Part shown: positions 2,918 to 31,519 of the stretch, piece by piece
Numbering within the stretch: position 1 is the first letter of the stretch
Layout of the letters: each line of letters starts with the position of its first letter
Origin: Fibrobacter succinogenes
Lineage (GTDB): Bacteria; Fibrobacterota; Fibrobacteria; Fibrobacterales; Fibrobacteraceae
Direction: 5' to 3'
DNA: 52,280 nt
NCBI RefSeq assembly: GCF_902779965.1
Contig: NZ_CACZDK010000025.1
Location: 1 to 52,280, forward strand
Translations under genes and position numbers: made by a program
Notes under the pieces: model-generated
What the model was told of the DNA's origin: nothing
The model's database searches: none
What the model saw: only the letters and a program-made list of their open reading frames with translations

Positions 2918-4567
2918 ATGAGTGTGGAAAATCTTAAAAAACTGATGGCTGTCGCTGGCGTTGCGGCTGGCTTTTCTCTGTTCGCGGTTTCTGGATCTAA
3001 TGCAGCTCCGAATCCGAACTTCCATATTTATATCGCATATGGTCAGTCTAACATGGCGGGGAATGGCGATATCGTCCCTGCAGAGGACCAGGCCAAGGAT
3101 CCCAAGAATTTCCTCATGTTGGCTTCGCACAACGCAAATGCGAACCAGCGTAGTGGCAAAACGACCCAGTCTATCAAGGTGGGCGAATGGTATCCGGCGA
3201 TTCCCCCAATGTTCCATCCTACCGAGAATCTCTCCCCGGCGGACTATTTTGGCCGCGCGATGGTGGATTCCTTGCCGGGTGTGACCGTGGGTATTATCCC
3301 TGTGGCTATCGGTGCTGTAGCTATCAAGGCTTTTGACAAGGATCAGTACAAAGCTTACTTCAATTCTGCTGAAAGTTATATCAAGAACTGGGCAAAGGAC
3401 TATGATTCCAATCCCTATCAGAGAATTGTGGACTTGGGCAAGAAGGCTAAGGAAGTAGGCGTCATCAAGGGATTTATTTTCCACCAGGGCGAAACCGATG
3501 GATCTGGCTCGGAATGGCAGAATAATGTCTATAAGACCTACAAGGACATTGTAAATGCTCTTGAACTGGACGAAAACGAAGTGGCCTTTGTGGCAGGCGA
3601 ATTGCTCCAGGAAGGCAACAACTGCTGCGGCGGCAAGAATGCCGGTATTGCCCAGCTTAAAAGCAAGTTCAAAAAGTTCGGTCTGGCCTCTTCCAAGGGT
3701 TTGCAGGGTAACGGCAGGGACCCTTACCACTTTGGCCGCGCGGGCGTGATTGAACTGGGCAAGCGCTACTGCTCCGAAATGCTCAAGCTTATCGACAAGA
3801 CTATCGATCCGGATGCTCCGGCTGTCGACCTGGTTGACCCCAGCAAGTCTGTGGTTCCCGACGAACCTCCCGAGGAATATGGCCCCTATGGCGATGCTCC
3901 CGCAAGTATTCCTGGCACTATTGAAGCTGAAAACTACAACAAGGGCGGAGCCGACAAGGCCTATTACGATTTGAGTAAAGGCAACGAAGGCAACAAGTTC
4001 CGCAAGGACGATGTTGATATTTACCAGCCGAACATGGGTATTGTTGTAGGTCACTGCCAGAAGGGCGAATGGCTCAAGTACACCGTGAAGGTGGAAGCCG
4101 ATGGCGAATATGAAATTTCTGCCCTTGTGGCTGGTGAAAACGGCTCCGGTAGCTTTAAGCTTTATGTGGACGATAAGCAGATTGGTGATGAAATTGTAAA
4201 CGAAGGCAAGGGCTTTGACACGTTCTCCGAAGTGAGCGGCGGCAAGGCTACTTTGAAGGCTGGCGAACATGAATTGAAACTTGAAATTGCCAATGACTGG
4301 ATCGATATCGACTATGTCGAGTTCAAGAAGGTTGACGATACTAACGGAATAAAGAACATTCGCTTGAATTTGACCGATACCGAAAGCCTCTTTAGCGTGT
4401 TCGATATGCAGGGCATTAAGCTTGGTTCGTTTACCGCCAAGGGCATGGAACATGCAGTTGCTCTCGTCAAGACCGATGCCAAACTCCGCAAGTACTCTAA
4501 GGGCGTGTTCTTCGTCCGTAAGGATGGTGCAACGCATATGGCCAAAAAAGTGGTTGTGCGCGAGTAA
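2918..4567 (+). CDS. Secreted CE6 acetylxylan esterase with CBM6 and FPm-1 (first copy)
   Basis: A 549-residue esterase that should remove acetyl groups from xylan so that GH10 and GH30 enzymes can bind. Signal peptide about 1-30. The SGNH-like CE6 domain (about 31-300) shows IYIAYGQSNMAGNGD with the catalytic Ser in GQSNM, the block HQGETDG, and the catalytic His in DPYHFGRAG. CBM6 about 330-471, FPm-1 about 480-549. The start ATG 2918 has AAGGGG 6-7 nt upstream. It is a close tandem paralogue of the next gene, similar over its full length. A pair of adjacent family 6 acetylxylan esterases has been described from F. succinogenes S85, and this locus fits, but I cannot tell which copy carries which published name. 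A candidate -10 TAGGAT lies at 2875-2880. Confidence 0.92.
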   Translation: MSVENLKKLMAVAGVAAGFSLFAVSGSNAAPNPNFHIYIAYGQSNMAGNGDIVPAEDQAKDPKNFLMLASHNANANQRSGKTTQSIKVGEWYPAIPPMFHPTENLSPADYFGRAMVDSLPGVTVGIIPVAIGAVAIKAFDKDQYKAYFNSAESYIKNWAKDYDSNPYQRIVDLGKKAKEVGVIKGFIFHQGETDGSGSEWQNNVYKTYKDIVNALELDENEVAFVAGELLQEGNNCCGGKNAGIAQLKSKFKKFGLASSKGLQGNGRDPYHFGRAGVIELGKRYCSEMLKLIDKTIDPDAPAVDLVDPSKSVVPDEPPEEYGPYGDAPASIPGTIEAENYNKGGADKAYYDLSKGNEGNKFRKDDVDIYQPNMGIVVGHCQKGEWLKYTVKVEADGEYEISALVAGENGSGSFKLYVDDKQIGDEIVNEGKGFDTFSEVSGGKATLKAGEHELKLEIANDWIDIDYVEFKKVDDTNGIKNIRLNLTDTESLFSVFDMQGIKLGSFTAKGMEHAVALVKTDAKLRKYSKGVFFVRKDGATHMAKKVVVRE

Positions 4568-4624
4568 GCGTCGTTGGCGCTAGGCGACTTTGTCGCAATT
4601 AAATGTTTCTAGGTTAAAATTAGC

Positions 4625-4651
4625 TTCCCCGCCTCTGTGCGGGGATTTTTG
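4625..4651 (+). terminator. Rho-independent terminator of the first CE6 gene
   Basis: Stem CCCCGC/GCGGGG (4627-4632 with 4639-4644), loop CTCTGT, then ATTTTT. A smaller GCGAC/GTCGC hairpin sits at 4584-4596 just after the stop codon. Confidence 0.8.
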
Positions 4652-4657
4652 CTTAAA

Positions 4658-4685
4658 AACTAAGTTCTAGTAACTAGTAACTCCC
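4658..4685 (+). repeat. Degenerate heptad tract T1
   Basis: Four consecutive 7-nt units (AACTAAG, TTCTAGT, AACTAGT, AACTCCC) between the first CE6 terminator and the promoter of the second CE6 gene. It is one of seven similar tracts in the window. Confidence 0.55.
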
Positions 4686-4690
4686 CTCCG

Positions 4691-4708
4691 TTGACAAAAC
4701 GTCCATAA
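4691..4708 (+). promoter_or_regulatory. TTGA-N7-TCCA box upstream of second CE6 gene
   Basis: TTGACAAAACGTCCATAA, 82 nt before ATG 4791. It differs at one of 18 positions from the box upstream of the second GH10 gene, which lies in the opposite orientation. A second half ATGGA follows at 4712-4716. A candidate -10 (TAGGAT) lies at 4745-4750. I infer a binding site of a shared regulator. Confidence 0.6.
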
Positions 4709-4790
4709 TATATGGAGCCCATAATTGAAACAAAACACTCTTTTTAGGATAGTTTTTGAATGGTGAAAAATTTGGATTAAGGAAAAAATT

Positions 4791-6452
4791 ATGGGTGTTG
4801 AAAAATCTTTAAAAAAATTGATGGCGGTTGCAGGTGCTGCGGCTGGCCTTTCTCTGTTTGGGCTTACAAGTGCAAATGCTGCCCCGAACCCGAACTTCCA
4901 CATTTACATTGCCTACGGACAGTCCAACATGGCGGGTAACGGCGATATCGTCCCTTCCGAGGACCAGGCCGAAGCTCCCAAGAACTTTATCATGCTCGCT
5001 TCGCACACGGCAAATGCGAGCCAACGTAGCGGCAAGACGAATCAGTCCATTAAGACTGGTGAATGGTACCCGGCAATTCCGCCGATGTTCCATGCTTTTG
5101 AAAACCTCTCGCCGGCAGACTACTTTGGCCGCGCGATGGTCGATTCCTTGCCGGGCGTGACCGTGGGTATCATTCCGGTCGCTATCGGTGCCGTGAGCAT
5201 CCGCGCTTTTGACAAGGATCAGTACGAGGCGTATTTCAGAGGTGATGGCAAGGACATTATGAACTGGGGCTGGCCCAAGGATTACGATAACAATCCTCCG
5301 GGACGCATCTTGGAACTCGCCAAGAAGGCTAAGGAAGTGGGCGTTATCAAGGGCTTCATCTTCCATCAGGGCGAAAGTGACGGTACCGATGCCAACTGGC
5401 GCAAAACGGTTTATAAGACTTACAAGGACATTATTGACGCTCTCGACTTGGACGAAAACGAAGTCCCGTTCGTGGCTGGCGAACTTCTCCAGGAAGGCAA
5501 TAACTGCTGCGGCAGCAAGAACGGCGGTATTCGCGAACTCAAGAATAATTTCAAGAAGTTCGGTTTGGCCTCTTCTAAGGGTTTGCTGGGTAACGGCAAG
5601 GACCCGTACCACTTTGGCCGCGCCGGCGTGATTGAACTTGGCCGCCGTTACTGCTCCGAAATGCTCAAGCTTATCGACAAGACAATTGACCCCAATGCTC
5701 CTGCCGTGAACTTGGTGGACCCGAGCCAGTCTACGGTTCCGGATGAACCGCCTGAGGAATATGGCCCGTACACCGAAGCCATTGCCATTCCGGGCAAGGT
5801 ACAGGCCGAAAACTACAACAAGGGTGGTGCCGAAGTCGCTTACCATGACGAAAGCAAGGGTAACGAAGGCGGCAAGCTCCGTAAGGATGACGTCGATATT
5901 TACCAGCCGAATATGGGTATAACTGTGGGGCATAACCAAAAGGGTGAATGGCTCAAGTACACCGTGAATGTGGAAGCTGATGGCGAATACGGAATTTCAG
6001 CTAATGTCTCTGGTGAAAACGGAACAGGCAGCTTTGTTCTTTACATCGATGACAAGAAAATCGGTACGGAAATCGTTAACGAAGGTAAGGGCTTTGATGA
6101 ATTTACGACGGTAGATGGTGGCAAGGCAACGCTCACCAAGGGCGAACATGAACTGAAAATCGAAATCACGAATGACTGGATTGATATCGACTATATTGAA
6201 TTCAAGGAAATCAGCTCCCAGCCGCCTATCGGAATCAAGAATGTGCGCTTTGACATGACCGAAGCCGAAAGCAGCTTTAGCGTGTTCGATATGCAAGGCA
6301 TTAAACTTGGATCGTTTACCGCCAAGGGCATGGATGACGCCATGAACCTCGTGAGGGAAAACGCAAAACTCCGTAAGCAGTCAAAGGGCGTGTTCTTTGT
6401 CCGCAAAAACGGAAGTAAATCTTTAACCAAGAAGGTGGTAATACATGAATAA
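4791..6452 (+). CDS. Secreted CE6 acetylxylan esterase with CBM6 and FPm-1 (second copy)
   Basis: A 553-residue tandem paralogue of the preceding esterase, with the same order of parts: signal peptide (about 1-31), CE6 domain with catalytic Ser in GQSNMAGNGD and His in DPYHFGRAG, CBM6 (about 332-473) and FPm-1 (about 485-553). The main differences are a slightly longer loop around residues 145-165 and many substitutions in the CBM6. Two paralogues may differ in preference for O-2 or O-3 acetyl groups or in binding; this is inference. ATG 4791 is preceded by AAGGA. Unlike the first copy it has a TTGA-N7-TCCA box, so the two may be regulated differently. Its last codons overlap the start of a 27-residue microprotein gene. 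Confidence 0.92.
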   Translation: MGVEKSLKKLMAVAGAAAGLSLFGLTSANAAPNPNFHIYIAYGQSNMAGNGDIVPSEDQAEAPKNFIMLASHTANASQRSGKTNQSIKTGEWYPAIPPMFHAFENLSPADYFGRAMVDSLPGVTVGIIPVAIGAVSIRAFDKDQYEAYFRGDGKDIMNWGWPKDYDNNPPGRILELAKKAKEVGVIKGFIFHQGESDGTDANWRKTVYKTYKDIIDALDLDENEVPFVAGELLQEGNNCCGSKNGGIRELKNNFKKFGLASSKGLLGNGKDPYHFGRAGVIELGRRYCSEMLKLIDKTIDPNAPAVNLVDPSQSTVPDEPPEEYGPYTEAIAIPGKVQAENYNKGGAEVAYHDESKGNEGGKLRKDDVDIYQPNMGITVGHNQKGEWLKYTVNVEADGEYGISANVSGENGTGSFVLYIDDKKIGTEIVNEGKGFDEFTTVDGGKATLTKGEHELKIEITNDWIDIDYIEFKEISSQPPIGIKNVRFDMTEAESSFSVFDMQGIKLGSFTAKGMDDAMNLVRENAKLRKQSKGVFFVRKNGSKSLTKKVVIHE

Positions 6453-6528
6453 GAACGAGTTGGTTATCGTAAAGCAAATTGCTTTCTTCTTTGTCGTCGC
6501 AGTTGCCCTTGGCATCATGTACGGGTAA
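6445..6528 (+). CDS. 27-aa single-pass membrane microprotein, overlapping the CE6 stop
   Basis: ATG 6445 to TAA 6526-6528. The first ten residues are MNKNELVIVK; the rest (QIAFFFVVAVALGIMYG) is one hydrophobic stretch long enough to span a membrane. GAAGGTGG lies 6-7 nt upstream of the ATG. The start overlaps the CE6 stop by eight bases in another frame, the usual geometry for translational coupling. No protein family is recognised. It could be a membrane peptide linked to export of the esterase, or a chance frame; the good ribosome site and the all-hydrophobic C-terminus favour translation. Confidence 0.45.
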   Translation: MNKNELVIVKQIAFFFVVAVALGIMYG

Positions 6529-6611
6529 GCCTGGCTGGCAGTTGGCAGAATGCAGTGGGCGGTGGATCTTTACGCTGGCCTAGTCTGCAAAAAAATTAGT
6601 GTGACTCCCTC

Positions 6612-6640
6612 AGAGCCCTGGTGAACCCAGGGCTCTTTTC
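6612..6640 (+). terminator. Rho-independent terminator of the CE6/microprotein transcript
   Basis: Ten-pair stem AGAGCCCTGG/CCAGGGCTCT (6612-6621 with 6627-6636), loop TGAAC, then TTT. The rest of 6529-6844 holds no convincing gene. An AAGGAGG followed by a 16-codon TTG frame (about 6698-6760) is noted but not called. Confidence 0.85.
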
Positions 6641-6775
6641 GTATCGACCATTAGTCTTGAAGCGAAACGTCAATGTCGCGGCCCCGGTCATCCGCAAGGA
6701 GGTTGGGCTTTGCTTCATCTGAAATTTCTTATTACAATTGCAACGGGATTCGTTATATAGTTGCTTTCTTTGCAT

Positions 6776-6807
6776 AAAAAAATCGCTCTGGATGTTTCCA
6801 GAGCGAT
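6776..6807 (-). terminator. Rho-independent terminator of the minus-strand CE1 gene
   Basis: Eleven-pair perfect stem (6782-6792 with 6797-6807), loop TGTT, and an A-run at 6776-6782 that is the T-run on the minus strand. It lies 37 nt beyond the stop of the esterase. Confidence 0.85.
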
Positions 6808-6844
6808 CTAGTGTAGTATAGGATGAATTATGAAATCAAATTCA

Positions 6845-8314
6845 TTACGGGAGTGTGAACTGCTTCAGGAACGGCCAGCCAATCTTGCCGTCGCCCTGTT
6901 CGTGGCCACCACCCTGCTTGGTGCAGAGCACAACCTTCGTGCCGTCCTTGCACTTGGAGTATTCTTGGCAACCATTGCTGTTCTTAGACGGAGAGCCTTC
7001 GCAACCGTTCTTTTGGGCCCAGAACTGGAAGTTCCTTTCGGCACCAAGGAAGTTCAGGCCGTCGCCATAGCCGCTATCGCCACCTTGGTATTTGCAGACG
7101 GGGTCGGACGTGCCACGGAACATGATGATAGAAATCGGACGTTCAGGATTGCACTTGGCGCTGTTTGTGGTGTTCAAGTCCATACCTGCCGGAGCAACTG
7201 CGGCGTACACATCAGACATGAAGCATGCCACATGGTTACTCATACCGCCACCCATTGAGAATCCGGTTGCATAAACGCGCTTCTTGTCGATGCAGACCTT
7301 TTCTTCGACTGCGGCGATCATTTCGCGAGAGAACTTCACGTCGTCATCGTCGGAGCAGCAAGGACCAACGTTCCAGCCCGGACCCATCTTTCTGGAGTCA
7401 GCAGACTTCGTGCCATCGGGGTACAGAGAGATAACGCCTTCAGGGTCTGTCTGAGCCTTGTAGGTCGTGCCGTTGAGCTGGTTGGAGCCAGAACCCATAA
7501 CCGGATGGTAGTCCACAACGAGAGGTACCGGCTTGTCGCCCTTGTAGGCGCTCGGCACGTGCATGATGAAGGTGCGCTTCTTGCCATCGACAGTCACGCT
7601 CATGTTGTGGTTGCCGGACTGGTAAGCCTTGCCGGAGCAGTCGATGATTTCTTCAATCTTGCTGCTGGAGGATGCAACCGGCTTTTCAGAGCTGGAAGAC
7701 TGTTCAACCTTTTTGCTGGAGGAACTGGAAGGTTCCGTGCCGCCGGCCTTCATGGTGACGTTGACATTGGTTTCGGTGAACTTTGTCATGTTGTAGGTCG
7801 TGTTCTGGTAGCCTTCCTTGGCGAACATAATAGCCGGAAGCGGACCATCGTCCTTGAGAAGTGTTACGACCTTGCCGAGCTGGTAGGTGCTGCGGTTTCC
7901 ATCAACGTTGATGCGGAGGTACTTGGCGCCCTTTGCTGTCGTCTTGTTCAAGTCAAAACTTAATGTTTCGTTGACGTAGTGTTGCGTCCTGGAGAAGGCG
8001 ACCTTACCGAGTGCATCCATGACAGACACTGTGATAGTCTGAGCCTTGATGTTTGCGATGGTAATCACATTGTTTTTGAATGTGACGGCGGTCTGGATGG
8101 CCTGAATGCCATTGTTTGCAGTCTGTTCATAGGCGAGACTGAATTTTCCGCCTTCAATAGAGGTTGTTTCGACACCAGCGTAGTTGAATGAGCTGATTTT
8201 TACATCAGAAAGAGGCTCGCCCTTGTCGGATTGAACAACACCACTGATGCTCCATGCGAAAGTAAGCGTGCTGAACAACGCTACTGTTCCGGTTAATGCC
8301 ATGAATTTGGACAT
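6845..8314 (-). CDS. Secreted CE1-type feruloyl esterase / PHB-depolymerase-like esterase with Ser-rich linker
   Basis: A 489-residue protein, the only hydrolase on the minus strand of the island. MSKFMALTGTVALFSTLTFAW is the signal peptide. Residues about 22-190 form beta-rich segments, first a carboxypeptidase-regulatory-like repeat (SGVVQSDKGEPLSDVKISSF), then a segment reminiscent of a sorting tail but internal here. A serine-rich linker (about 195-225) leads to the esterase domain (about 230-489): nucleophile Ser in GFSMGGGMSNH, the GPCCSDDDDV loop, and a terminal GGGHEQGDG with the likely catalytic His. This matches the CE1/LpqC group that includes feruloyl and acetylxylan esterases; ferulate release is the likely role but not proven. 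Start 8314 is chosen over 8365 because AAGGAG lies 8 nt upstream and the signal peptide begins there. It has no CBM6 and no FPm-1. Confidence 0.85.
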   Translation of the reverse strand: MSKFMALTGTVALFSTLTFAWSISGVVQSDKGEPLSDVKISSFNYAGVETTSIEGGKFSLAYEQTANNGIQAIQTAVTFKNNVITIANIKAQTITVSVMDALGKVAFSRTQHYVNETLSFDLNKTTAKGAKYLRINVDGNRSTYQLGKVVTLLKDDGPLPAIMFAKEGYQNTTYNMTKFTETNVNVTMKAGGTEPSSSSSKKVEQSSSSEKPVASSSSKIEEIIDCSGKAYQSGNHNMSVTVDGKKRTFIMHVPSAYKGDKPVPLVVDYHPVMGSGSNQLNGTTYKAQTDPEGVISLYPDGTKSADSRKMGPGWNVGPCCSDDDDVKFSREMIAAVEEKVCIDKKRVYATGFSMGGGMSNHVACFMSDVYAAVAPAGMDLNTTNSAKCNPERPISIIMFRGTSDPVCKYQGGDSGYGDGLNFLGAERNFQFWAQKNGCEGSPSKNSNGCQEYSKCKDGTKVVLCTKQGGGHEQGDGKIGWPFLKQFTLP

Positions 8315-8523
8315 GGTCGTACGACTCCTTTTGTTGTTAAAATTTTTTCCAAACCAGTTTTGCACCCAAGCCAGCCTATCCCAAGATAAAATGCTAAGCC
8401 TGATACGCTCAAAATATAGAAGTAATCATTTTTTTTTAAATAGAAATTTGTTGTGAAAAATTATAAAGCGTTGTGAAAATTGAGAAATGTCACGTGCTCT
8501 GTAAAAAAAAGAAAACTAGGCTG

Positions 8524-8541
8524 TTGATAAAAAATCCATGA
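8524..8541 (+). promoter_or_regulatory. TTGA-N7-TCCA box in the divergent CE1/GH43 promoter region
   Basis: TTGATAAAAAATCCATGA, identical over all 18 nt to the box upstream of the first GH10 gene (opposite orientation there). It lies 89 nt before the GH43 ATG and 209 nt before the divergent CE1 start. A candidate -10 (TATAGA, 8593-8598) follows. The remainder of 8315-8630 is AT-rich with no gene. Confidence 0.65.
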
Positions 8542-8630
8542 AAAGGGGGAATATTGCTGCAATTTAGGCCTATAAACGGGGTAAATTAGGGTTATAGATA
8601 AGTCCATTCTTGGTTGGAAAGGAGTCGTTT

Positions 8631-31501: not shown

Positions 31502-31519
31502 TTATGGACATTTTGTCAA
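31502..31519 (-). promoter_or_regulatory. TTGA-N7-TCCA box upstream of second GH10 gene (reverse orientation)
   Basis: Minus strand TTGACAAAATGTCCATAA, 17 of 18 identical to the CE6 box at 4691. It extends into TCCATTATGGA (31498-31508) and is 93 nt before ATG 31613. Confidence 0.65.

Follow-up and report, generated by a model that had tools for sequence, protein, structure and literature searches.

The window analyzed here, a 52,280-nucleotide stretch of Fibrobacter succinogenes DNA, almost certainly harbors a genuine protein-coding gene under purifying selection, which specifies a predicted membrane protein of only 27 residues and begins within the last codons of a gene for a CE6-type acetyl esterase. 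The microprotein appears to represent a lineage-restricted family of single-span inner-membrane proteins of 27 to 29 residues, some of which are encoded at the very ends of genes for polysaccharide-degrading enzymes and others elsewhere in the genome. The best-supported general mechanism, to which we assign a probability of about one half, is that the microprotein would act in trans as an accessory of an inner-membrane partner, with its dose raised by the coupling to hemicellulase genes.

The microprotein gene (MNKNELVIVKQIAFFFVVAVALGIMYG; positions 6445-6528, plus strand) is delineated by its reading frame, by conservation across the family and by purifying selection; it starts with the ATG at 6445, comprises 27 codons and ends with the TAA at 6526-6528. 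The CE6 frame (4791-6452, plus strand), which encodes a SASA domain (36-293), a CBM6 domain (372-472) and a basic C-terminal region, terminates with the TAA at 6450-6452, such that the two genes share the eight bases ATGAATAA (6445-6452, plus strand), exactly as the original prediction had it. The ribosome-binding site that was claimed to be well placed is indeed found six bases 5' of the ATG: GAAGGTGG (6431-6438, plus strand) falls within the codons for the C-terminal KKVV of the esterase. A hairpin scan of the window detected a terminator-like hairpin 3' of the microprotein (6612-6636, plus strand), so that the microprotein would be the last cistron; altogether, 7 terminator-like sites were found in the window compared to a mean of 3.2 in shuffled sequences. 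Upstream, in tandem with this esterase gene, lies a CE6 paralogue that lacks a terminal microprotein (2918-4567, plus strand) and has AAAAAAGTGG instead of AAGGTGG at the KKVV codons. A matching pair of adjacent CE6 genes, likewise featuring CBM6 and BTD, is listed for F. succinogenes S85 as Fisuc_1766/1767 (FSU_2266/2267) in a table that itself makes no mention of a microprotein (PMC3079729). The word TTGACNNNNNGTCCAT is present in two exact copies in the window (4691-4706 and 31504-31519), outside long ORFs, with weaker copies in other intergenic stretches, and similar words recur between CE6-type and adjoining genes of relatives; it is a possible operator of a hemicellulose regulon, which, when two mismatches are allowed, is not enriched window-wide (19 found against 14.6 expected from shuffles).

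The microprotein is predicted to form a single hydrophobic helix, in line with the initial claim, with a best 17-residue Kyte-Doolittle mean of 2.59 (cut-off, 1.6). Because 5 of 47 chance frames, taken from around the stops of 690 long ORFs (unrelated, ATG-initiated, 20-40 residues), also pass this cut-off, such an observation on a single sequence is by itself only mildly surprising. When the 601 bases at 6200-6800 were searched against 41 genomes, the DNA similarity in three of these (G001, G004 and G014) spanned query bases 1-329 and ended exactly at the last base of the microprotein ORF, which argues that the frame is more than a product of chance. Across 13 MNKNEL loci, pairwise DNA identity averages 0.86 within the ORF and 0.82 over the preceding 99 bases but 0.27 (ungapped) beyond the ORF. 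The dN/dS ratio is 0.066 in the group with the eight-base overlap, outside the overlap itself (26 sequences, 268 pairs), 0.171 in the eleven-base group, 0.132 in the MQKED group and 0.087 in the GDSL-linked group; the first four codons are excluded throughout and, with synonymous distances close to saturation (dS of 1.4 in the eight-base group), these ratios are approximate, their direction being clear. In shifted frames of the same DNA, pN/pS ranges from 0.97 to 5.3. Thus, the general hallmarks of single-span small membrane proteins, namely a short ORF, one hydrophobic helix and purifying selection, are all observed, and the sequence evidence supports the reality of the gene and of the family, the genomic layouts, the selection and two kinds of expression signals.

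A profile built from 35 rows matched 64 of the 80 genomes of the same genus at E < 1e-6, the family being absent from the other 16. With 36 rows, the profile retrieved 65 of 167 genomes of the phylum at E no higher than 0.01. These fall into 2 of 40 genera and comprise the same-genus 64 and one genome of a sister genus (G158), whose own sequence is part of the 36-row profile and which the 35-row profile, built without it, detected at 6e-7. Among the fetched loci, there is a gap in the profile scores between 33.6 and 14.4 bits, the weak matches at L171-L174 having been assessed by one profile score. Merging of the 159 profile matches in 174 loci (when the peptide and 60 bases on each side were identical) yielded 129 unique copies, a procedure that undercounts genomes with identical DNA; the second G024 copy, at C52, lies outside the loci counted. 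These copies correspond to 104 distinct peptides, all hydrophobic; 110 copies are 27 residues long, 18 copies have 28 residues and a single copy has 29, and 125 of the 129 start with ATG. The C-terminal end is YG in 123 copies, YR in four, YH in one and FS in one. Over the 103 distinct 27-mers, L22, G23 and a K or R at position 10 are present in all, Y26 in 102, Q11 in 100, G27 in 98 and A19 in 94, which defines the family core as K/R-Q...A..LG..YG; in the sister-genus copy (L089), Phe replaces the Tyr. Positions 14-15 are chiefly occupied by F, L and V, glycine being rare there, and the N-terminal 12 residues usually carry a net charge of +1. Conservation shows weak periodicity along the helix wheel (permutation p of 0.05-0.14 depending on the stretch), which is not significant, so that the notion of a small-residue edge formed by A19, G23 and G27 rests on invariance. 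No family in Pfam, NCBIfam or PHROG describes the microprotein.

Where, then, are the genes of this family located? In 71 of the 129 unique copies, the gene is coupled to a gene for a polysaccharide enzyme (62 CE6 and nine GH43), and the remaining 58 are uncoupled. A CE6 gene lies upstream of 64 copies: 58 overlap its stop (26 by 8 bases, as in the window, 29 by 11, two by 14 and one by a single base), four start 14-18 bases away and two, counted as uncoupled, are far off; nine copies start 3 bases after a GH43 gene, most of them with a GH53 gene downstream. The layout of a coupled pair, that is, a start that overlaps or adjoins the upstream stop and is conserved in relatives, is accordingly found in 58 overlapping copies and 13 more within 18 bases. 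Representative neighbors were searched against Pfam, NCBIfam and PHROG. The uncoupled copies reside near a GDSL-type gene, near a gene that we take, from its sequence, to be coaE together with a gene for an unrecognized protein of ~340 residues, near a Na+/H+ antiporter gene and in other places. The copies at L047 and L091 and one copy at L170 were counted as uncoupled; with a CE6-like gene or AAGGTGG just upstream, these may in fact be coupled to a frame that is broken or was mis-called. Copies of the two kinds coexist in at least 43 of 65 genomes (12 hold only coupled and 10 only uncoupled copies), the counts of genomes with both kinds, from a locus-to-genome table compiled by hand, being lower bounds given that many genomes are incomplete. 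For the initial idea of an esterase-linked microprotein, the recurrence after CE6 genes is upheld, with one correction: given nine copies after GH43 genes and 58 uncoupled ones, the microprotein is not specific to the esterase.

Tandem CE6-microprotein units exist as well, with three at L135 and L178. On named MAG contigs, 24 loci carry CE6 genes 70-91% identical to that in the window, with the microprotein present in 20 and absent in four (L190, L191, L194 and L197). The existence of intact CE6 genes without the microprotein, at these four loci and in the first CE6 gene of the window, implies that the esterase can do without it. One locus, L176, combines an intact microprotein with a decayed one, ATGAATAAAAAAGAAATGGCCTGA (L176:4655-4678), at the end of the second CE6 gene, which retains the same start and overlap and stops after seven codons. 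At L191 and L197, CE6 has VGSF in place of its last residues, and the sequence beyond, common to both loci, contains no microprotein, as though the operon end had been swapped. At four loci (L148:2504-2824, for example), a DUF3392 membrane protein of 107 residues is encoded ~130 bases 5' of an uncoupled copy. Furthermore, the signal peptide of a downstream GH43-like enzyme at L085 (6107-6172), L086, L087 and L088 resembles the N-terminal 22 residues of the microprotein, with four matches at E of 0.01-0.13 by the 35-row profile and three at 0.003-0.005 by the 36-row profile. These signal peptides were rejected as family members for want of the YG end; the similar starts hint at common origin or exchange.

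The coupled and uncoupled copies are preceded by different expression signals. AAGGTGG supplies the codons for K-V-V at 44 of 48 coupled ends, whereas 2 of 13 comparable ends that lack a microprotein have it (Fisher 2e-7; only C-termini matching [KRQ]KV[VIGT] were compared, and related sequences were counted separately), and thus the frame and its ribosome site, conservation of which in other Fibrobacter strains had been set as the test of the original prediction, are indeed both conserved there. Overlaps of -11 and -14 are described as less favorable for translational coupling (PMC12548453, in part), so the embedded AAGGTGG site may recruit ribosomes independently. As for the translational coupling to CE6 that was originally proposed, the overlapping layout is conserved, and coupling itself is what we infer from that layout. 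A Shine-Dalgarno match precedes 36 of the uncoupled copies; another 20 lack such a match and instead have a TAnnTT -10-like element no more than 19 bases from the ATG (background, 55 of 882 first ATGs), the two sets being disjoint; the remaining two of the 58 have GTATTTTGTGG at the -10-like position, outside both search patterns. By eye, a CTTACA-like element is discernible ~20 bases 5' of the -10 in many uncoupled copies, and the promoter-like array CTTACA ... TGTATTTTA ends 5-6 bases before the ATG, for example, at L058:2322-2397, L065:2606-2681, L149 and L164. Thus, 20-22 of the 58 uncoupled copies are probably translated from leaderless mRNAs.

So how could a protein that is little more than a single helix function both next to and away from these enzymes? 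The usual +1 charge points to a cytoplasmic N-terminus, in which case the K-Q pair would be positioned near the cytoplasmic face and the helix would end at Tyr-Gly on the outer face of the membrane. The edge A19-xx-L22-G23-xx-Y26-G27, with its small residues spaced four apart, would pack against a conserved polytopic membrane partner, modulating or stabilizing it much as AcrZ, CydX and KdpF do for theirs. The microprotein would act in trans, with the uncoupled copy providing a basal dose and the second copy, translated by ribosomes that finish a secreted hemicellulase or pectinase, raising the dose upon induction of the operon. Translation of the gene, topology, binding of a partner and control of the dose are all parts of this accessory model that we infer.

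Under a further reading, which we entertain as a possibility of rather low likelihood, the microprotein would be an envelope cofactor coupled to the cargo: the ribosome that completes a surface hemicellulase would restart on the short overlap, and the resulting helix would ready the inner membrane, be it the export apparatus or a pump for efflux or uptake, to handle the enzyme or the products of its activity, the uncoupled and often leaderless twin giving the basal supply. If this is the case, small membrane proteins translationally wired to extracellular enzymes would amount to a new regulatory layout.

The identity of the partner was sought through co-occurrence. All 64 genomes of the genus with the microprotein contain at least two SASA matches, compared to none in six, one in nine and two in one of the 16 genomes without it (Fisher 2.4e-15). 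In 11 of these 16 genomes, the SprA frame is 2281 residues long, which suggests, with other shared features, that the 16 largely form one clade; since, in addition, many copies sit on CE6 genes, this correlation reflects few independent events and is partly circular. RND transporters and T9SS tails are present in 80 of the 80 genomes of the genus, SprA in 76, and MBOAT genes in 36 of 41 relatives, none of which separates genomes with the microprotein from those without it, so that none of them is singled out as the partner. Nor does any one partner gene accompany every copy of the microprotein, and we regard any named partner as unlikely at best.

The microprotein could be an AcrZ-like modulator that binds an AcrB-type RND transporter and tunes the export of phenolic acids and other toxic compounds that cleavage of acetylated, feruloylated hemicellulose sets free, a role that would account for the wiring to CE6 operons. 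AcrZ is the best match of the family profile among solved structures, over 12 residues (query 16-27), with the A, LG and YG in register in the HMMER alignment (VVMAIILGLIYG versus svlAvvLGfiYG); one member of 35, outside the 10 of the 35 that were rescanned, matches Pfam AcrZ (E 0.048); and the RND transporters are available throughout the genus. However, the E value of 0.88 for the structure match is at the chance level, and no match above the PF10766 cut-off was found in any of the five genomes searched. Furthermore, AcrZ is described as requiring a bend around Pro16 for AcrB binding and as having a periplasmic N-terminus (PMC7267776, in part), whereas the last 17 residues are free of proline in all 104 peptides and the charge predicts the opposite orientation. 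Membership in the AcrZ family was rejected accordingly. RND pumps are equally common where the microprotein is missing, and an AcrZ-like role appears doubtful.

Similarly improbable is a role as a secretion cofactor, whereby a ribosome fresh from completing cargo with a C-terminal domain would make the microprotein on the spot to help that cargo through Sec or through the type IX components of the inner membrane. The coupled copies, 71 in all, without exception lie after secreted-type polysaccharide enzymes, and the basic C-terminal domain of such enzymes has been proposed as a T9SS signal (PMC6851124, in part). Yet, G000, for which paralogue counts and genome-wide controls derive from searches plus fetched stretches, carries 41 T9SS-tail matches against two microprotein genes, the 16 genomes that lack the microprotein all carry such cargo (14-43 matches each) and in 15 cases SprA, NCBIfam did not find a T9SS tail in P0002, and the uncoupled copies mostly do not adjoin cargo of this kind.

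A small hydrophobic toxin, or the precursor of a peptide pheromone with the conserved C-terminus as the active part, would fit with a multicopy, short and hydrophobic gene product whose C-terminus is fixed to the last residue, and with the likeness that some copies bear to the signal peptide of the GH43 enzyme encoded downstream. We consider this very unlikely because a toxin could be coupled to digestive enzymes that the cell needs only at a cost; no match to the microprotein was found among 50,697 phage records or 72,556 plasmid records, nor any Rfam family in the 4500-8600 region; and conservation is strict across the genus, pheromones being usually prone to diversify.

Even less credence can be given to a DltX-like acyl shuttle, in which the outer-face Tyr26 would carry an acyl group between an MBOAT protein and an SGNH-fold enzyme. 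The single span, the near-C-terminal Tyr and the MBOAT genes of the relatives are compatible with this scheme, as are the SASA and GDSL enzymes among the neighbors, both of which we take to be SGNH-superfamily folds; one of 35 members, again outside the 10 that were rescanned, matches Pfam DltX (E 0.0052). Against it, the C-terminal FXYXXF motif described for DltX and the MBOAT acyl shuttle (PMC12148441, in part) is absent, the peptides ending mostly in YG and the sister-genus copy having Phe, on which grounds DltX membership was rejected; in MBOAT systems other than Dlt, that motif is on the MBOAT protein itself (same source). In G000, moreover, the MBOAT genes are on contigs C1 and C17 and the microproteins on C25 and C43, and the CE6 enzymes are tabulated as characterized acetylxylan esterases (PMC3079729, in part). 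In terms of gene linkage, the representative neighbors include, by Pfam, esterase/lipase-type proteins and no MBOAT. The least probable alternative, that there is no functional protein and that the frame is accidental or else an element acting in cis within the esterase mRNA (a stop context or a spacer before the terminator), could appeal to the ability of any KKVV ending to supply AAGGTGG and to the hydrophobic control frames (5 of 47) but is already strongly contradicted by dN/dS of ~0.1, the uncoupled copies' own start signals, the fixed length and the family-wide invariants.

Searches of the literature on Fibrobacter small membrane proteins, microproteins, type IX secretion, acetylxylan esterase operons and small-protein discovery, with most subscription journals outside their scope, returned no description of the microprotein. 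We know of no described precedent for a one-helix protein that is encoded as the last cistron after a secreted enzyme and has an uncoupled copy elsewhere. Fibrobacter is a leading degrader of fiber in the rumen, and little is known of how its envelope adapts to active hemicellulose operons; a genus-wide membrane protein that family libraries have missed and that is wired to acetylxylan esterases would offer a small, directly testable handle on the envelope. Fibrobacter does not feature in a survey of small membrane proteins (PMC10903887).

Among the known systems, AcrZ (PF10766), the accessory of the AcrB efflux pump, is likewise a small single-span inner-membrane protein and has an A-xx-LGLIYG stretch in common with the microprotein, which differs in being 27-29 rather than 49 residues long, in having no equivalent of Pro16 and nothing past the YG, and in its opposite predicted orientation. 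With DltX, the microprotein shares the status of a membrane microprotein with an almost invariant Tyr near a C-terminus on the outer face; it differs in the missing FXYXXF, in that no linked MBOAT or carrier protein is seen, and in the replacement of Tyr by Phe in the sister genus. CydX, KdpF and similar one-helix subunits are usually encoded together with their partners. Unlike these, the microprotein matches no family, nearly half of its copies are uncoupled and the coupled neighbor is a secreted enzyme, yet it belongs to the same size class, consists of one helix and, under the accessory model, would likewise serve a larger complex.
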